A stretch of DNA of 64,000 bases from an uncultured Olsenella sp. (GTDB lineage Bacteria > Actinomycetota > Coriobacteriia > Coriobacteriales > Atopobiaceae). Below the pieces are notes generated by a model that worked only from the letters and a program-made list of their open reading frames with translations, was not told the DNA's origin and did no database searches. Shown one piece after another: positions 25,855 through 35,285 of this stretch. The stretch is taken from contig OMVJ01000002.1 in the NCBI GenBank assembly GCA_900314495.1, forward strand, positions 62,001 through 126,000, written 5' to 3'. Position 1 is the first letter of the stretch. Each line of letters starts with the position of its first letter. The translations under genes were made by a program, and so were the position numbers.

Positions 25855-26250
25855 CTAGCTCGAGAGTCCCTCGTCCAGGGCGCGCAGCTCCTCCGGCACC
25901 TCGTTCACGTCCGAGCCAAACGCCTCGGCAACTGCCTCCGCCTGCTCGCGACGGTCCTCCGCCAGCCCCTCCATGCCCATGGCCCCGTAGGCCACCGAGA
26001 GCTTGTTGAGGGCATATGCCACATAGCCGGAAATCGCGTCGCCCGTCCCTGCCAGCATCATCATGGTGACCAGGCTCTCTGGCGCGAGGGACATCGCGGT
26101 CTCCGCGTCCAGCTGCAGAAGCTCGCCAATGGCGGACTCCACCTCCCCAATGGCAACCTCGTCGTGCTCCTCCAACGCCCGGTGGAGCGCGTTCGTGATG
26201 GTCTGGACGAACTGCTGGATTATCTCCAGCAGGTAGTCATGTTGAAGCAT
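25855..26250 (-). CDS. small helical protein, possibly DUF6483-like
   Basis: A 131-residue, strongly acidic, all-helical soluble protein. The N-terminus (MLQHDYLLEIIQQFVQTITN) resembles small DUF6483-type proteins, which begin with a DYIMRxIE-like helix, but I am not certain of the family. No catalytic residues are evident. It is sandwiched between ruvB (55 bases) and the CDF gene (1 base) on the same strand, so it is probably translated from the same message as the exporter. Confidence 0.65.
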   Translation of the reverse strand: MLQHDYLLEIIQQFVQTITNALHRALEEHDEVAIGEVESAIGELLQLDAETAMSLAPESLVTMMMLAGTGDAISGYVAYALNKLSVAYGAMGMEGLAEDRREQAEAVAEAFGSDVNEVPEELRALDEGLSS

Positions 26251-26304: not shown

Positions 26305-27369
26305 CTAGCACGCCGTGGGTGGCTGCAGGCCAAGGTGCTCGAAGGCGGCCAGCGTCGCCTGCCGACCCTGCGGGGTGCGGATGATGAGCCCGCGCTGCAG
26401 CAGGTAGGGCTCGTACACGTCCTCTATGGTGGATGGGTCCTCGCCCACCGCGGAGGCGATGGTGGTGAGGCCAACGGGCCTGCCCCGGAAGGTCCGCGTG
26501 AGGGCTGTGAGGATCTTCGTGTCCATCCAGTCTAGGCCGAGCTCGTCTATCTCGAAGAAGGTCAGAGCCTCTGCCGCGACCTCCCAGGTGATGGTCCCCT
26601 CGGCCTTGACCTGCGCGTAGTCCCTCACGCGCTTCAGCAGGCGGTTGGCAAGGCGCGGCGTGCCGCGGCTGCGCGAGGCAATCTCGGCCGCACCCTGGCC
26701 GTCTATCTGCACCCCGAGTATGCGGGCGGACCGCACCACGATGCGGGCCAGCTCGTCGGTGGTGTAGTAGTCCAGGCGGTAGCTGATGCCGAAGCGGTCG
26801 CGCAGGGGGCCCGTCAGGAGCCCCGTGCGGGTGGTCGCCCCGATGAGGGTGAAGTGAGGGACGTCCAGCCGAATGGAGCGCGCCGCCGGTCCCTTGCCGA
26901 TCACGATGTCCAGGAAGAAGTCCTCCATCGCGGGGTAGAGCACCTCTTCCACCTGGTGGTTCAGACGGTGGATCTCGTCCACGAAGAGGACGTCGCCCTC
27001 CTCCAGGTTGGTGAGGATCGCCGCCAGGTCACCCGAGCGGGCGATTGCCGGGCCAGAGGTGGTCCGCAGCTTGGCGCCCATCTCGTTTGCCACCACGTTG
27101 GCGAGCGTTGTCTTGCCCAGGCCGGGAGGGCCCGAGAAGAGCACGTGGTCCAGCGACTCGTGACGGTCCTTGGCGGCGGCTATGAGCACGCGCAGGTTCT
27201 CGCGCACGCGCTCCTGTCCGCAGTACTCGTCCAGCGTCGCGGGTCGCAGGCTGTGCTCAATGTCAATGTCGTCACCGGTGAGCTCCCCCGTGACGGAGCG
27301 CGGGCCCGCCTGGTGCCGCGGGGCTCCCCCCTCGTCCTCGAAGAGGTCTGCCTTGTCGGACTGCCACAT
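26305..27369 (-). CDS. ruvB: Holliday junction branch migration helicase RuvB
   Basis: The 354-residue AAA+ motor drives branch migration of Holliday junctions with RuvA. Motifs seen are the [12 protein letters not shown] entry, Walker [13 protein letters not shown], Walker [10 protein letters not shown], sensor [17 protein letters not shown] with the arginine finger, and the C-terminal winged helix ([13 protein letters not shown]). The start codon directly abuts the ruvA stop, indicating translational coupling. Order on the minus strand is ruvC-ruvA-ruvB. Confidence 0.98.
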
Positions 27370-28002
27370 TTACGCACCACCCCCCAGGCGCCTGAGCGCA
27401 TAGCCAATGACCTTCTCCAGCGTGACCGCGCCGGCCGCCTCGTGGCCGTCCAGGGCAAGCTCCGCCTCCTGGGGCGTGAAGCCCATGGAGAGCAGGGCGG
27501 AGGTGGCCTCCTGGGTTATGGACTCGCTCGTCTCGGGCAGCTTGGACGCGGCGGGGGTGGGCTCCGTCATGCCCACCAGGCCCATGAGCTCCGGGTCCTT
27601 GGTGAAGACGTCCTGCAGCTCCACCAGGAGCCTCTGCGCCTTCTTCTTGCCCACGCCGGGAACCGTTGCCATGCGGGCCTCGTCCTGCGTGGCCACCACC
27701 GTGGCAAGGGATGCGGGCGTCAGCGTGCTGAGGACGGCCAGCGCCAGCTTCGGGCCCACGCCGGACACGCCCACCAGACGGTCGAACACGGCGCGCTCCT
27801 CCCGGCTGCAGAAGCCGTAGAGCTCCATGGCGTTCTCCTTCACCAGCAGCCGCGTGAGCAGCGTGACGCCTGCCTCGCCCACCGCCGGGAGCGCGGCGGC
27901 GGTGTTGGCCGAGACCCCAAGCTCATACCCAACGCCGTGCACGTCAATGACCACATGCGTGGGCAGGACCTCCACGAGCGTTCCCGTAAGCTGAACAATC
28001 AT
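27370..28002 (-). CDS. ruvA: Holliday junction DNA-binding protein RuvA
   Basis: The 210-residue protein binds four-way junctions as a tetramer and loads RuvB. The N-terminal OB domain (MIVQLTGTLVEVLPTHVVID) is followed by two helix-hairpin-helix motifs (LVGVSGVGPKLALAVL and ATVPGVGKKKAQRLL) and the small domain III that contacts RuvB (LLSMGFTPQEAELAL). Its ATG overlaps the ruvC TGA as ATGA, so the two are coupled. Confidence 0.98.
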   Translation of the reverse strand: MIVQLTGTLVEVLPTHVVIDVHGVGYELGVSANTAAALPAVGEAGVTLLTRLLVKENAMELYGFCSREERAVFDRLVGVSGVGPKLALAVLSTLTPASLATVVATQDEARMATVPGVGKKKAQRLLVELQDVFTKDPELMGLVGMTEPTPAASKLPETSESITQEATSALLSMGFTPQEAELALDGHEAAGAVTLEKVIGYALRRLGGGA

Positions 28003-28652
28003 GCCTTAGACCTCCTAGACTTGCGCGCCGCCAGCATGGCGGAGCGGTCGCGAGTCTCCCTCGTGACGTGTGCCGCCGTGGCGGCCGCCGTAGCCTGGCG
28101 CGCCTCGTGGGCGTCCCATTCGCGTTGCGCGAGCTCCTGCTGGAGCACCTGGTCGCCCGCCACCCTGCGGGCCACGTTGCGCGTGCGGACAAGGTTCGCA
28201 TGGCATATGGCCGCCGCCAGCGCGTCCGCGCAGTGGTCCGGACGCGGGTCGTGGTCAAGCGCCAGGATGTTGCGCACCATGTAGATTACCTGGTACTTGT
28301 CGGCGCTGCCCGTGCCCACGACGGCCTGCTTGATCTGCATGGGCGTGTACTCGCCCACCTCAAGGCCGTTCTGGGCGCAGGCCACTATGGCCACGCCCCG
28401 CGCGTGCGCCGTGGCGATTGCCGACCGCGTGTTCTCGCCGAAGAAGATCTTCTCAATTGCGAGCTGGGTGGGATGGTAGAGCTCGATGGCCTCCGAAACC
28501 CCGTCGAAGATGCGGCCGAGGCGCTGGTCAAGGGGCTCGGCCGCCTTGGTCTCCACGCAGCCGTACGCACGCGTGCGGTACACGCTGCCCCGTGTCTCTA
28601 TAATGCCCCAGCCCGTGTGTGCGAGCCCGGGGTCTATGCCCAGGATGATCAC
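27999..28652 (-). CDS. ruvC: Holliday junction resolvase RuvC
   Basis: The 217-residue endonuclease cuts Holliday junctions. Catalytic acids are seen in LGIDPGLAHTGWG, LAIEKIFFG and DHCADALAAAICH. The GTG at 28652 is used because AAGGAGG lies seven bases upstream. The core ends near residue 170; about 45 further residues (ARRVAGDQVLQQELAQREWD and onward) form an Arg/Ala-rich helical tail that is longer than in most RuvC proteins. It heads the ruvCAB unit. Confidence 0.95.
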   Translation of the reverse strand: MIILGIDPGLAHTGWGIIETRGSVYRTRAYGCVETKAAEPLDQRLGRIFDGVSEAIELYHPTQLAIEKIFFGENTRSAIATAHARGVAIVACAQNGLEVGEYTPMQIKQAVVGTGSADKYQVIYMVRNILALDHDPRPDHCADALAAAICHANLVRTRNVARRVAGDQVLQQELAQREWDAHEARQATAAATAAHVTRETRDRSAMLAARKSRRSKA

Positions 28653-28726
28653 GCGTCCTCCTTGCAGGCGTGCGCCGAAGGTCCGAACTACTGTTCTAGT
28701 AGAGTAGCACACCCGTGCGCCCGGGC

Positions 28727-30589
28727 CTAGTTCTCAGAGAAGGGATTCCCCCATTCCGTACCCATGTCGCGCCCCCCGCCCAGGTCCATGCCCTGGGATT
28801 GGCCGAAGTCGCGCAGGTAACCCAGCATGTCGCGGGTCTCGCTCCCAAGCGAGCCGCCCCCACCCTGGGCGTCGCCCGCGTCACTCATGCCCAGCAGGGC
28901 GTCCACCAGGTCGTCCTCCTCCCCAAGCTCCTCCGCGGAGCGTACGCGGTCGTGCCACGCCATGCCAAGCGGCCGCCGAGCGTCGAAGAGGGTCTTGGAC
29001 GACACCATGAGGTACATGGCGCGGCCGGTGCGCGCAGGCTCAAGCCGCTCCAGCCGCGACACCACCTGCGGCACCACGTCCGCGTTGCCCTGCTCCTGCA
29101 CCAGCCGGCTCACGTCGCACTCCCACTCCAGCCGCATGCGCAGCACGCGGTCGACAAAGCCCAGCTGCGCCTCCGGCTGCGCCGAGACCGACCCGACGCC
29201 GGGAACGTCCGGCACGCCGAAGGAGCGCATGCAAGCGGCGGAGAGCACGGGCGAGATGGTGTTCCTCATGCGGGCGACGTCCAGGAGGTCCGTCCGGTAC
29301 ACGTCTCCGAAGGGGCACAGGGTGGCCACGTGGGCCGCGTTCGCCTCCGCCTCCAGCGCCAGCGCCGTCTTGTCGCTTGGCGAGAGCACGATGCCGCCAA
29401 GGCTACGCGCCCATGCCGCCAGCTGCACCTCCACGAGGTCGGCCACCAGCCGCGCGTCCGCGGCTTCCGCAGCGCCGGCCGGAAGGACCTCCTGGCGGCT
29501 GGGCTGGCGCAGGTCCAGGCGCAGGTTGCGCGCCAGCTCCACCGCGCCCTCACGCGCCTCGCCCGCGACGGTTGGGGGAATCATGGCGTGAACGTTCACC
29601 GGACCCAGGGCGTCCGAGGCCAGGACGGCCAGGAGCGAGGACTGCAGCGTCCCGTCGAGGCAGAGGGCCACGTCGTAGAGGTCCTGCTTGTCCATGTAGT
29701 CGTGCAGGCCCAGCACCAGGGACTCCCACAGGTAGAGCGGCGCGTTGTAGACCTCGGGCGCCAGGGCGTCAGCCAGGGGCCCCTCGGACCTCGGGTCTAT
29801 CTCCGCCGTGATGATGGCCTCCTCGAAGGCCGGGGCCGAAGCCGCCAGCTCGCCCCACGGCGCGAGCACGAAGCTGGAGCCCGTGAACACCTGCGTGCCG
29901 TAGCCCCCCAGCGAGCCCACGCCCACGACCCACGCGTCTGCGTCGCGCGCGTCGGAGACGTATCGGTTCTCCGCCAGGTCACCGCCCAGCGCAGAGGAGG
30001 GGTCGTCGAAGGCGTAGCCATATCCGCCCAGGTAGATGATGCCGTCCACGCCAAAGTCGTAGTCCACGTAGTCGTCCAGGTCTTCGTACGTGAAGGCGAC
30101 GCCGAAGCTTGCCCCCGCCAGCTCGAAGACGGGCAGGTCCGGCGCGGGGGCGTCCTCATCCTCGCCCGCGTCTCCCTGGGGGCGTGGGCCCGCGAAGGCC
30201 CCCGGCCCGCCGCCAAAGACCTCCGCGGCATGCGGTGCACCCGCCCAATCCGCGTGCGAGAGGTACGCCACCAGCTTCAGGGGCATGATCCGGCCGTCGC
30301 GCAGCAGCATGGCCTCTGGGAGCGGGTCTCCGTCCAGGTCCGTCACCACGGGCACGATGGCCGGGCACTGCAGCCTATCCGCAAGGCTGGACAGGGTGTC
30401 CGCCAGGTCCAGCAGGAAGCCCTCCTGCTCCGCGTAGCCCACCGGGGCTGGCCCCGTCAGGGCGGCCATGGGAAAGACCAGCAGGTCAACGCCCTGGTTC
30501 CTGGCCACGCGCGAGCACTCCACCATTCGCTCCGCCGTGACTGCAAAGTCCCCCGCCCGGGTGCCGATCTGAGCGATGCCTATCTTCAT
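28727..30589 (-). CDS. NAD synthetase-like protein with degenerate active sites
   Basis: The 620-residue protein has the layout of glutamine-dependent NAD synthetase: an N-terminal nitrilase-type domain (MKIGIAQIGTRAGDF) and a C-terminal synthetase domain (LGLHDYMDKQ, later SPSDKTALALEAEA and DVARMRN). Key residues are missing. The glutaminase Glu is Met41 (VFPMAALTG), the nucleophile Cys is Thr167 (GVAFTYEDL), no clear catalytic Lys is seen, and the ATP-binding SGGxDS loop reads LDGTLQS at 311-317. Neither ammonia release nor adenylation looks possible, so it is probably a pseudoenzyme with another role. The C-terminus is a Gly/Asp-rich tail. Confidence 0.8.
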   Translation of the reverse strand: MKIGIAQIGTRAGDFAVTAERMVECSRVARNQGVDLLVFPMAALTGPAPVGYAEQEGFLLDLADTLSSLADRLQCPAIVPVVTDLDGDPLPEAMLLRDGRIMPLKLVAYLSHADWAGAPHAAEVFGGGPGAFAGPRPQGDAGEDEDAPAPDLPVFELAGASFGVAFTYEDLDDYVDYDFGVDGIIYLGGYGYAFDDPSSALGGDLAENRYVSDARDADAWVVGVGSLGGYGTQVFTGSSFVLAPWGELAASAPAFEEAIITAEIDPRSEGPLADALAPEVYNAPLYLWESLVLGLHDYMDKQDLYDVALCLDGTLQSSLLAVLASDALGPVNVHAMIPPTVAGEAREGAVELARNLRLDLRQPSRQEVLPAGAAEAADARLVADLVEVQLAAWARSLGGIVLSPSDKTALALEAEANAAHVATLCPFGDVYRTDLLDVARMRNTISPVLSAACMRSFGVPDVPGVGSVSAQPEAQLGFVDRVLRMRLEWECDVSRLVQEQGNADVVPQVVSRLERLEPARTGRAMYLMVSSKTLFDARRPLGMAWHDRVRSAEELGEEDDLVDALLGMSDAGDAQGGGGSLGSETRDMLGYLRDFGQSQGMDLGGGRDMGTEWGNPFSEN

Positions 30590-30707: not shown

Positions 30708-31088
30708 CTACAGGTCGGCCTTCCAAAGGCCATGCAGGTTGCAGTACTCGTAGACGGAGGCGTCCTCCGCACCGCAATCCGCGAACTCGGTAACGGGCTT
30801 CTCGCCGGGGTGCAGGTAATGGACCTCAACCCGGTCCTTGGCGGCGAGGGCGACCCACTGGATGTAGTGCGCGTCCAGCATGGGGTGCTCCACGGAGCCG
30901 ACTGCGGCCTTGATCTTGCCATCCTCACGCGTCACGACGGGAACGTGCTTCTCCGTGGCGGCATCGGTGGAACCGGCGACCAGCTCCTCCATGGGCTCGC
31001 CGCAGCACTGCGGCGTGCACGTGCCCTTCTGAACCACGGCGACCAGGTTCCCGCACTTGTTGCAACGATAGAACGTAACGTCCGCCAT
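30708..31088 (-). CDS. dfx: desulfoferrodoxin (superoxide reductase)
   Basis: The 126-residue iron protein reduces superoxide to peroxide in anaerobes. The N-terminal desulforedoxin domain has four cysteines (YRCNKCGN and QCCGEPM) for the Fe(SCys)4 centre. The catalytic iron site is marked by EKHVPVV, EHPMLDAHYI and the C-terminal YCNLHGLW. The ATG at 31088 with AGGAA upstream fits the family start (MADVTFYRC); the frame extends a further 17 codons without similarity. A promoter candidate lies at 31160-31188. Confidence 0.95.
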   Translation of the reverse strand: MADVTFYRCNKCGNLVAVVQKGTCTPQCCGEPMEELVAGSTDAATEKHVPVVTREDGKIKAAVGSVEHPMLDAHYIQWVALAAKDRVEVHYLHPGEKPVTEFADCGAEDASVYEYCNLHGLWKADL

Positions 31089-31159
31089 AGGAATTTCCTC
31101 TCTCCTTGTGGTGCCTGCCAGTCGGACACCTTCAGTCATTGTCCCCCGTATGCAGCGGT

Positions 31160-31200: not shown

Positions 31201-34200
31201 CTAGGCAAGCACCACCTGTCCGCCCTTGCCAAGCAGGTCCGTCACCTCCGCGCGCAACACCATGTTGTGGGCGTCCACCTTGGTGGGCAGGGCCATGCGC
31301 ATGGTGTCGCCTGAGGCCCCCTCCACCAGAAGCTCCACGTTGTCCAGCCCGTTGTAGCGGCTGAGGATGGCCCCCAGCTGCTCCATGCGCCCACGCGAGA
31401 GCATGCGGCTGGACATCATGAGCTCCAGGATCTTGGGCCTGTTCGTCCTTTCGTTCAGCTCCAGGGCCTCCACGGACGTGCAGATCACCTGGTCGCCGCG
31501 GTCGGACCGCTCCAGCTTGCCGTACACCTTTATGAAGACGTCGCCCTCGGACTCGCCCGTCTCCTCGTTCACCTGTCCCGCCAGGATCTGCGCGCACTCC
31601 TTGTACAGCTTGGGGAAGACGACCAGCGTCACCTCGGACTCCATGTCCTCAAGCGTGACTATGGCCATGGGGTCGCCGCTCTTGGTGGTCTTCTTCTGCA
31701 CGGCCGAGACCATGCCCGCCAGGCAGATGGACTTTCCCTCCTCCACCTTGTAGCGCGTGGTGGTGGCGCCGGTGTAGGGGTTGGTGTACTCCTCGGACTC
31801 CTCCAGGGCGGAAAGCGGGAAGTCCCGGGCCTTGGCCAGCGCGTACTCGTACGGCCGCAGGGGGTGGTCCGAGACGTACATGCCCAGCACCTCGTGCTCC
31901 TGCGCAAGCTTGATGCGGCGGTCCCACTCAATGCCGTCGGGGGCCGGCACGTCCTCCTCGAAGCCGGAGCCCTCCACGTCGCCGAACATGTCGAAGAGCG
32001 ACACCTGGCCGGCAGCGCGGTCCTTCTGGCGCTTGACCGCGGCGTCGACTATGTTGGCCGGGTTGTCCTTGTCAACGAAGTGCATGAGCTGCTTGCGCGT
32101 GTAGCCCGTGGAGTCGAAGGCGCCGGACTTGATAAGGGCCTCCACCACACGGCGGTTGGCGTCCTTGGAGTCCACGCGCTCCACGAAGTCGTGCAGGTTC
32201 TTGAAGGGGCCGCCCTTCGCGCGCTCCGCCATGATGGCCTCGCCCACGGACTCGCCCACGCCGCGGATGCCGGCGAAGCCGAAGCGGATGCCGTCGGGCG
32301 TGGCGGTGAAGTCGCGACCGGACTCGTTGATGTCTGGCGGCAGGATCTCGATCCCCTCGCGCTTGCAGGAGGTCACGTAGTGGACGATCTTGTCCGTCTT
32401 GCCCATGTAGGACGTGAGGACCGAGGCCATGTACTCCTTGGGGAAGTAGGCCTTGAGCCAGGCCGTCTGCATGACCAGGATGGCATAGCCGGCGGAGTGC
32501 GACTTGTTGAACGCGTAGGAGGCGAACTCCAGAACGTTGTCCCAGATCTCCTGCGCCACCTCGCGCTTGTAGTGGTTCTCCTCCGCGCCGTTCATCCAGT
32601 GGTCGTAGATGGTCTCGTCCTTGCCGTTGCCCTCCCAGTGGAAGATCTGGCCGGTGAGCATCTTGATCTTCTTCTTGGCCACCGGCTTGCGCATGCGGGA
32701 GTCGGACTCGCCGCGCGAGAAGCCCGACATGGCGACGGAGATCTGCATGACCTGCTCCTGGTAGACCATGGTGCCGTAGGTCTCCTCCAGGATGGGCCTC
32801 AGGCGATCGTCGTAGTAGGAGATCTGCTCCTTGCCGTGCATGCGGTTGATGTAGCTGGTTACCATGCCCGCGCCCAGGGGGCCCGGCCGGTACAGGGCGA
32901 TGAGTGCCACTATGTGCTTGTACTCCGTGGGCTGCATGCCCTTGATGGTGGCGGTCATGCCGCCGGACTCCACCTGGAAGACGCCCGCCGTGTGGCCCGA
33001 GCCCAGCAGCTCGTAGATCTTTGGATCGGTGAAGTCGATCTTGTCCACGTCAATGTCCACGCAGGTGGCGCCGTCCTTCAGGCACGACCTCACGGAGTCG
33101 GGCATGGCGTCTATGTCCGACGCGTTGGGGTACGAGTGGCGGATGTTCTCCAGCGCCTTGTTGATGACCGTCAGCGTACGCAGGCCCAGGAAGTCCATCT
33201 TCAGAAGGCCCATGTCCGCCACCGAGTGGCCCTCGTACTGGGTGATGGTGACGTTGCCCTTGGTGTCCAGCTTGGTGGGAACGTGGTCCGTCACGGGCGT
33301 GGGCGCGATGAGCGTGGCGCAGGCGTGCACGCCCTCGCCACGGGTCAGGCCCTCTATGGAGAGCGCCGCGTCAATTATGCGGTGGGCGTCCGGGTCCTTG
33401 TTGTATGCCTCCTCGAAGTCCGGGGAATACTGGTCCGGGTGCTTCTCGCCCTTGTGGAGGGCGCAGGGAAGCGAGAGCTTGGGGTCGTTGGAGAGCATCT
33501 TGGAGAGCTTCTGGCCCACGTAGACGGGGAAGCCCAGCACGCGGTTGGCGTCGTTGATGGCCTGCTTGGCCTTGATGGTGGAGTAGGTGATGACCTTGCA
33601 CACGTGGTCCTCGCCGTACACCTCGCGCACGTGCTGCAGCACGTCCTGGAGGTGCTCGTCGTCGAAGTCCATGTCGATATCAGGCATCTCGGAGCGCTCC
33701 GGCGAGAGGAACCTCTCGAACATGAGGCCGTTCTCCAGCGGGTCGAAGCTCGTGATGTTCATGGCATAGGCCACGATGGCGCCGGCGGCGGAGCCGCGGC
33801 CCGGACCCACGCCAATGCCGTTGTCCTTGGCCCACTGCACGTAGTCCTGCACAATAAGGAAGTAGTTGGCGAAGCCCTTCTCGCAGATGACCTTGTATTC
33901 GTACTCGAAGCGCTCCTCCACGTTCACACCCTGGATGGTAACGTTGCGCCAGTCCTCGCCGTAGCGCTTGGCCAGGCCCTTCTCGCACTCCTCGCGGAAG
34001 CGCTCCTCCGCGGTCTCCCCCGGCCTGAGGCCAGGGAAGCTGGGCAGGTACATCTTGGTCCAGTCAAGCTCATAGTCGCACTTGGCCGCAACCTCCAGCG
34101 TGTTGTCGCAGGCCTCCGGAATCCAGGAGAAGAGCTCCCGCATCTCCTCCTCGCTCTTCATGTAGAACTCGGTGCCCTCCATGCGCATGCGACTGGTGTC

Positions 34201-35100
34201 GTCCAGCGTGGTGGCCTTGCCGATGCAGCTCAGGATGTCCTGCGTGGGGGCGTCCTCGCGCGTCAGGTAGTGGAAGTCGTTGGTGGCGACGACCTTTATG
34301 TCCAGCTCGCGCGCGAGCTTCACCAGGTACTCGTCCAGCTTGCGGTCGTCCCAGCCGTTGCGGAAGCGCAGGCCGTGGTCCTGGACCTCCATGTAGAAGT
34401 CGTCGCCGAATATGCGCTTGAAGGTGCGGGCCCACTCGCGCGCGGCGTCGAAGTTGCCGTCCAGCACGTTCTGCTGGATGATGCCCTGCACGCAGGCGCT
34501 CTGGCAGATGATGCCCTCGTGGTACTGCTCCAGCATGGCCAGCGTGGTGCGGGGCTTGTAGTACATCATCTCGTGGCCGGCGGCGTGGGACATGCACCGC
34601 ACCAGGTTGTGGTAGCCCGTGCCGTTCTTGGCCAAAAGGATCAGGTGGTAGCGGCGCTGCTTGGTTCCGCGCTCGATGCAGTCATCCGTGATGAAGTAGG
34701 CCTCGCAACCGAAGATGGGCTTGACCTTGAGGCGCGGCCTGTTTGCCTGCACGGCCGCCAGGTCGTGGCCCGACTCCTCCCAGGCGCGCACGTCCGACGC
34801 CCACTGGTCATGCACGCAATCGAAGTAGTCCGCGTCGTCCGCGTCCGGGGCCGGCTCCTCCAGGTCCCAGGACTTCTTGAAGCACTCCACGTCGTGGCGC
34901 CACTGCTTCATGTTCGCCGAGGCGTCGTTGTACTTGCGGCACTCCAGGTCCAGGTTGGGAATGCCGAACATGTAGCCATGGTCGGTCAGCGCTATGGCAG
35001 GCATCTTGAGGTCCACGGCACGCTTCACCATGTCCGGTATGCGGGTCGCCCCGTCCAGAATCGAGAAGTCCGAGTGGTTATGTAGGTGTACGAACGCCAT
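31201..35100 (-). CDS. dnaE: DNA polymerase III subunit alpha (DnaE)
   Basis: The 1299-residue replicative polymerase has an N-terminal PHP domain (FVHLHNHSDFSILDGA), the palm acidic motif PDIDMDFDD near residue 471, helix-hairpin-helix sequences, and a C-terminal OB-fold region followed by a short tail (VTDLLGKGGQVVLA). The length is slightly above the usual 1160 because of insertions in the PHP region (about residues 60-130). The ATG at 35100 follows GGGAGG and matches the family start; upstream codons to 35274 are excluded. It lies downstream of addA in the same direction with 185 bases between. Confidence 0.96.
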   Translation of the reverse strand: MAFVHLHNHSDFSILDGATRIPDMVKRAVDLKMPAIALTDHGYMFGIPNLDLECRKYNDASANMKQWRHDVECFKKSWDLEEPAPDADDADYFDCVHDQWASDVRAWEESGHDLAAVQANRPRLKVKPIFGCEAYFITDDCIERGTKQRRYHLILLAKNGTGYHNLVRCMSHAAGHEMMYYKPRTTLAMLEQYHEGIICQSACVQGIIQQNVLDGNFDAAREWARTFKRIFGDDFYMEVQDHGLRFRNGWDDRKLDEYLVKLARELDIKVVATNDFHYLTREDAPTQDILSCIGKATTLDDTSRMRMEGTEFYMKSEEEMRELFSWIPEACDNTLEVAAKCDYELDWTKMYLPSFPGLRPGETAEERFREECEKGLAKRYGEDWRNVTIQGVNVEERFEYEYKVICEKGFANYFLIVQDYVQWAKDNGIGVGPGRGSAAGAIVAYAMNITSFDPLENGLMFERFLSPERSEMPDIDMDFDDEHLQDVLQHVREVYGEDHVCKVITYSTIKAKQAINDANRVLGFPVYVGQKLSKMLSNDPKLSLPCALHKGEKHPDQYSPDFEEAYNKDPDAHRIIDAALSIEGLTRGEGVHACATLIAPTPVTDHVPTKLDTKGNVTITQYEGHSVADMGLLKMDFLGLRTLTVINKALENIRHSYPNASDIDAMPDSVRSCLKDGATCVDIDVDKIDFTDPKIYELLGSGHTAGVFQVESGGMTATIKGMQPTEYKHIVALIALYRPGPLGAGMVTSYINRMHGKEQISYYDDRLRPILEETYGTMVYQEQVMQISVAMSGFSRGESDSRMRKPVAKKKIKMLTGQIFHWEGNGKDETIYDHWMNGAEENHYKREVAQEIWDNVLEFASYAFNKSHSAGYAILVMQTAWLKAYFPKEYMASVLTSYMGKTDKIVHYVTSCKREGIEILPPDINESGRDFTATPDGIRFGFAGIRGVGESVGEAIMAERAKGGPFKNLHDFVERVDSKDANRRVVEALIKSGAFDSTGYTRKQLMHFVDKDNPANIVDAAVKRQKDRAAGQVSLFDMFGDVEGSGFEEDVPAPDGIEWDRRIKLAQEHEVLGMYVSDHPLRPYEYALAKARDFPLSALEESEEYTNPYTGATTTRYKVEEGKSICLAGMVSAVQKKTTKSGDPMAIVTLEDMESEVTLVVFPKLYKECAQILAGQVNEETGESEGDVFIKVYGKLERSDRGDQVICTSVEALELNERTNRPKILELMMSSRMLSRGRMEQLGAILSRYNGLDNVELLVEGASGDTMRMALPTKVDAHNMVLRAEVTDLLGKGGQVVLA

Positions 35101-35227
35101 GCGTTGGCCTCCCGTAGGGCACCGGCCCCAGTCTTGGCAGAAGCGAGCAGAGTGGATTGTAGGGCGAGCGGGCGCCACCCGCCACGGCATACTGCTCAGA
35201 ATAGGCGAAAACTTGTTCGAATGGAAT

Positions 35228-35269
35228 GGCCCCTGAGCTGGGACGTTTGCATCTGCCCAGCTCAGGGCC
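35228..35269 (-). terminator. probable terminator of the addBA operon
   Basis: GGCCCCTGAGCTGGG and CCCAGCTCAGGGCC form a long hairpin with one bulged base and a 13-base loop, 17 bases past the addA stop. The minus strand then reads ATTCCATTCG, which is only mildly T-rich. Confidence 0.6.
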
Positions 35270-35285
35270 CCCATTCTTGCGTGGG

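Follow-up and report, generated by a model that had tools for sequence, protein, structure and literature searches.

An invariant C-terminal tetrapeptide and loss of both sets of catalytic motifs in a conserved NadE-fold protein

How does a NAD synthetase-like protein that lacks the catalytic residues of both its halves come to be kept in bacterial genomes, and for what function? The question is raised by a minus-strand gene at positions 28727..30589 of the window, i.e., the whole 64,000-nt stretch of DNA that was analysed. It encodes a protein of 620 residues, hereafter pseudo-NadE, whose coordinates, length and overall NadE layout were proposed in a preliminary description and are borne out here by ORF calling, Pfam, NCBIfam, the AlphaFold2 fold and orthologue alignment. 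The first half (residues 1-268; 29786..30589, minus strand) is glutaminase-like, with a nitrilase fold, and matches the Pfam family CN_hydrolase over residues 2-268 (E 9.4e-14); the synthetase-like half (residues 283-545; 28955..29743, minus strand), delimited by Pfam, AlphaFold2 and a structure match, gives a weak match to NAD_synthase over residues 288-391 (E 8.5e-6), and is followed by a poorly conserved linker (residues 551-612; 28754..28939, minus strand) in which AlphaFold2 confidence is low towards the end. The AlphaFold2 model, for which 63 orthologues were used, reached a mean pLDDT of 89.4, mostly above 90 in both domains, with a loose insert at about residues 111-150 and disorder from residue 596 to the end of the protein; this and all other models of pseudo-NadE and its relatives are of monomers. 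By sequence, profile and predicted structure, the best PDB matches are the two-domain NadEs 3n05, 5kha and 4f4h, and the glutaminase-synthetase domain order and fold of PRK13981-type NadE are present, while the NCBIfam model of that two-domain NAD+ synthase (PRK13981) gives 101 bits against a curated cut-off of 479.

Motifs were compared with those of eight intact two-domain NadEs and of 13 sister-order enzymes, likewise intact; a scan of genome contigs, most matches of which were ordinary Verrucomicrobiota NadEs sharing an N-terminal peptide, was used solely as a source of intact references. In the alignment, Met41 (30467..30469, minus strand) takes the place of the glutaminase Glu and Thr167 (30089..30091, minus strand) that of the Cys, as previously proposed, and the Lys of the triad is also absent. 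The replacement of the synthetase loop SGGxDS was likewise recognized before, and reads D312-G-T-L-Q-S317 (29639..29656, minus strand). Further, NKSE has become DKTA, with D406-K407-T408 (29366..29374, minus strand) in place of NKS and the Glu lost, and DxxK has become D-V-Y-R, its Lys replaced by Arg. Loss at both sites was found in 96 distinct orthologues, of which 79 come from f1, the family of the window, and 17 from a second family (f3): the glutaminase Glu and the Cys are missing from every one of them, as is an intact SGGxDS. Neither the Glu-Lys-Cys triad nor the SGGxDS loop with NKSE, features that define a PRK13981-type NadE, is found in pseudo-NadE.

Some of the old synthetase pocket is nonetheless left, since K407 and D429 occur in 96/96 orthologues and T408 in nearly all, and the fold is retained. 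A protein of this kind could be a ligand sensor whose pocket still binds a nucleotide, or a repurposed enzyme catalysing another reaction via Lys407, Thr408 and Asp429, as the preliminary description had partly suggested in speaking of ligand sensing. However, there is no phosphate-binding loop any more, SGGxDS and NKSE have both lost their acidic residues, the loop at the equivalent position varies by family (DG[TS]LxS vs xGDLxS), and the DxxK Lys position is occupied by Arg in f1 and by Leu in f3. Together, these losses and differences make a pocket chemistry common to all orthologues doubtful, and we regard a sensing or repurposed catalytic role as unlikely.

Among the representative genomes examined, orthologues were present in 134 of the 140 belonging to f1, as well as in f3. 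Five of the six f1 genomes with no orthologue are 57-82% complete. The sixth, G028, is a 99%-complete single contig from whose examined sequence dnaE, ruvC and pseudo-NadE are all missing; given that dnaE and ruvC are also lacking, the absence of pseudo-NadE there is uninformative, and this genome was rejected as a natural knockout. Divergence is fast, with identity of only about 50% within the genus, and one genome (G060) carries an in-frame stop, both of which would be expected of a decaying pseudogene or an annotation artefact. Such an explanation is nevertheless very improbable: in 32 pairs of close relatives dN/dS ranged from 0.03 to 0.28 (median 0.07), indicating purifying selection, almost every genome with a match has an open frame, and both the C-terminal tail and the locus described below are held constant across the two families. 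Recent decay was rejected on account of the low dN/dS and of substitutions common to all orthologues, no relative with intact motifs having been found in f1 or f3, and a sequence artefact was rejected on account of the open frames. Moreover, a motif loss common to 96 distinct orthologues is neither chance nor the private accident of one genome. The earlier proposal that selection has kept frame and length is thus supported by the shared substitutions, the low dN/dS, and the retained fold and locus. With an enzyme fold, catalytic residues missing in all orthologues alike, and purifying selection, pseudo-NadE has the properties of a pseudoenzyme, and its sequence makes it very probable that it is dead as a NAD synthetase while being maintained by selection. 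The label "NAD+ synthase", which the domain matches invite, would be wrong for these genes in two families.

A feature missed by the preliminary description, and new here, is an invariant C-terminal tail. Pseudo-NadE ends in F617-S618-E619-N620 (28730..28741, minus strand), and F-S-x-N closes 96/96 full-length orthologues; a short way ahead of it there is usually an aromatic residue, in most cases Trp. Conservation reaches 97% or more at 17 positions, F617, S618 and N620 among them, and the linker that precedes the tail is among the least conserved parts of the protein (mean majority identity 0.25). Phe, Ser and Asn are each encoded by different synonymous codons, and every one of the three stops occurs, from which it follows that selection acts on the peptide; a constraint at the DNA level at the 3' end was rejected on the same grounds. 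An orthologue of 1,078 residues in G019 (L206:4663-7899) has an acidic low-complexity extension and ends in NNPFSIN. The tail is modelled with a pLDDT of about 33 in pseudo-NadE and about 30 in a relative that has kept its synthetase site intact, and in the monomer models of both proteins no docking of the tail into its own body was seen, which is weak evidence. Within the window's own genome, a strict pattern (W, spacer, FSEN, stop) matched only the pseudo-NadE gene, and looser FSxN-stop patterns gave 8 matches vs 10 in controls; other proteins of this genome with the same tail were sought and rejected, given that three further stop-type matches closed no ORF.

Proteins that dock by a C-terminal tip have a variable, disordered linker closed by a peptide that does not vary, and pseudo-NadE shows this arrangement; its flexible arm, with the constant tip and a free carboxylate, would be read as a docking peptide. 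This tetrapeptide on its disordered linker is the strongest clue to function, and suggests partner docking in the first place; we infer that pseudo-NadE probably acts in this way, with real room for doubt.

The origin of the protein can be followed in its relatives. In the sister orders of the class, every motif is intact in 13/13 two-domain NadEs. In the other families of the order (f2, f5-f10 and one f4 genome), 13/13 lack the glutaminase Glu, Lys and Cys and have SGGxDS and NKSE; an enzyme of this kind is presumably ammonia-dependent, with a dead first domain, as judged from its motifs. The glutaminase-dead, synthetase-intact two-domain NadEs of these families include L161-L172, L176 and L177, and those of f9 listed as L164, L170, L171 and L176 end in YLAN, ILEN, ILEN and FLDN, respectively, which resemble FSxN. 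In the other-family genomes searched, the glutaminase-dead NadE was the strongest NAD_synthase match, and the sole strong one except in G250 and G310. G250 carries an extra NadE of 690 residues and has therefore two NadEs, the synthetase motifs of the resident one being intact. In f4, the matching NadE consists in most cases of one domain and lacks the dead first one. The synthetase site, too, has been lost in f1 and f3. The tree agrees with this stepwise motif loss: f1 and f3 form one clade (SH-aLRT 99), f10 is the nearest group, with moderate support (SH-aLRT 80 only), and both lie within a clade of the whole order (99). Judging by relationships and genome sizes, f1 may correspond to Atopobiaceae, f3 to Coriobacteriaceae and f4 to Eggerthellaceae, all in Coriobacteriales.

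Two genomes of f10 bear on how the last step took place. In G311, the synthetase motifs are intact, dfx is a neighbour and the tail, FSKN, is already present; a search of this genome found no second NadE. In G310, the copy (L204, on G310:C50, 5668-6929), cut by the contig end, has AGDLDS in place of SGGxDS, and a separate single-domain NadE has SGGKDS; the cut copy apparently records a second loss of the synthetase loop that took place independently. Every case in which the second site has gone is accompanied by another NadE, and we infer that the second NadE came first and the loss of the synthetase site followed, with cause running in the same direction.

The position of the gene between desulfoferrodoxin and ruvCAB had been correctly described; all of these genes lie on the minus strand, and locus comparison shows the arrangement to be conserved. 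With X standing for pseudo-NadE, the order dnaE-dfx-X-ruvC-ruvA-ruvB holds in f1 and f3 with small variations. In the window, dnaE (31201..35274) lies upstream of dfx, as in most loci of both families, the desulfoferrodoxin gene dfx (30708..31139) is the upstream neighbour, as in most loci, and ruvC (27999..28712) and then ruvA and ruvB (26305..28002) are the conserved downstream genes, all on the minus strand. At 25855-26250, also on the minus strand, lies a gene for a 131-residue protein with no Pfam family above cut-off, found downstream of ruvB in most f1 loci. In f5, the synthetase-intact NadE is separated from nearby dnaE by a single ORF of 417 aa, which fits a common locus.

The maintenance of this single-strand locus in two families, together with a typical distance of 40-150 nt from the stop of pseudo-NadE to the start of ruvC and the lack of any terminator-like site on the minus strand of the stretch scanned, would be consistent with a recombination or replication accessory that is co-expressed with ruvCAB and dnaE and docks one of their products through the tail. 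Conversely, in f10 the tail already exists and ruvC is on another contig, and neighbourhood alone is weak evidence, as housekeeping genes may just share a promoter; such a role is quite improbable.

The reaction itself need not be missing from these cells. A separate NadE of the Mycobacterium tuberculosis type with SGGLDS was found in 16/16 f1 and f3 genomes checked, so that by its motif an active paralogue is present in each of them, the copy of the window's genome (G000) being frameshifted as assembled. That copy, the canonical nadE L141 on G000:C22 (about 740-800), lies at a contig edge, on a different contig from pseudo-NadE, and compared with the congener G002 it seems to have lost about 70 nt between the glutaminase and synthetase halves, which shifts the frame; because the frame is open in the relatives, this is probably an assembly fault. 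A second nadE, whose absence would have spoken against the preliminary description, is therefore present, with the reservation that applies to this one assembled copy.

The co-occurrence also allows for a prozyme-like regulator, NadE regulation being one of the roles put forward in the preliminary description; the dead protein would then bind its cell's active NadE, of the M. tuberculosis type, and tune it. An NadE with SGGLDS accompanies it in every f1 or f3 genome checked, dead paralogues that activate an active partner are known, as in the AdoMetDC prozyme (PMC5201418), and NadE is elsewhere controlled by a protein partner, PII (PMC7196632). Nevertheless, pseudo-NadE is of the PRK13981 type and the active enzyme of the PRK02628 type, two separate NadE branches, and a shared oligomer interface is thus not expected; the genes are not neighbours, and the tail already exists in G311, a genome in which the search gave no second NadE. 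We therefore hold regulation of NadE by pseudo-NadE to be unlikely as well.

The reading that we favour, on balance and with some reserve, is that of a NadE-fold pseudoenzyme that lost catalysis in two steps and was kept as a non-catalytic adaptor docking a partner via its C-terminus; NadE regulation of the prozyme kind, an accessory role with RuvC, RuvAB or DnaE, and ligand sensing are each less supported. In the first step, at the level of the order, the glutaminase triad was lost and the synthetase motifs stayed intact, which would have left an enzyme presumably using ammonia; in the second, f1 and its sister family f3 lost the synthetase site too, both losses being evident from the sequences, and the separate M. 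tuberculosis-type NadE presumably took over the reaction. What was retained is a folded body and a flexible C-terminal arm ending in F-S-x-N-COOH; the arm would dock a specific partner protein, and the body would serve as a scaffold or hold a ligand. Given that the FSxN tail also occurs in a relative whose synthetase site is intact, docking is probably older than the loss of catalysis, and would be the function that was kept. One idea is that a glutaminase-dead NadE was kept by its tail in the vicinity of a nitrogen donor or a user of NAD, and that only the docking role survived once the second NadE had taken over the chemistry. The conservation of K407, T408 and D429 in the old synthetase pocket counts against an adaptor, and would fit ligand binding or another chemistry. 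In a more speculative vein, and with only a slim chance of being right, F-S-x-N-COOH may be an undescribed C-terminal docking signal and the dead NAD synthetase a dedicated adaptor through which the state of a nucleotide or of NAD is linked to a partner, perhaps the neighbouring gene products RuvC/RuvAB or DnaE. The invariant FSxN offers a direct way into the search for the partner.

The literature searched contained no report of a catalytically dead NadE from these bacteria; PMC3376133, which deals with the evolution of one- and two-domain NadE, gave no match for "inactive", "paralog", "Collinsella" or "Coriobacter". One bacterial class provides a clean natural series from two active sites to one and to none, with the intermediate still found in sequenced genomes, and this series makes both the origin of a pseudoenzyme and what outlives catalysis directly testable.

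Among known systems, two-domain NadEs of the PRK13981/NF010588 type (3n05, 5kha, 4f4h) are alike in domain order and fold, and pseudo-NadE keeps the Lys of NKSE (in 96/96 orthologues) and the Asp of DxxK; it differs from them in the loss of catalytic and nucleotide-loop motifs, in a score far below the family cut-off, and in a C-terminal linker with an FSxN end. The M. tuberculosis type (PRK02628; 3dla, 3syt), to which the other NadE of the genome belongs, has the same domain architecture; it is a separate branch with intact motifs, and not the direct ancestor of pseudo-NadE. The glutaminase-dead NadEs of the order's other families (L161/L191, L168) share the dead first half and the branch, L191 also having the dfx neighbour and an FSKN end, but they differ in their intact SGGxDS and NKSE, and are, on that evidence, probably active ammonia-dependent synthetases. 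The AdoMetDC prozyme of Trypanosoma brucei, which is known to bind and activate its paralogue, is likewise a catalytically dead protein beside an active enzyme (PMC5201418). Unlike that pair, pseudo-NadE and the NadE of its genome are not recent duplicates. Finally, the C-terminal tip of SSB combines a variable disordered linker with an invariant short end peptide and a free carboxylate; peptide and body differ from those of pseudo-NadE, and the likeness of the two tails is one of working principle.
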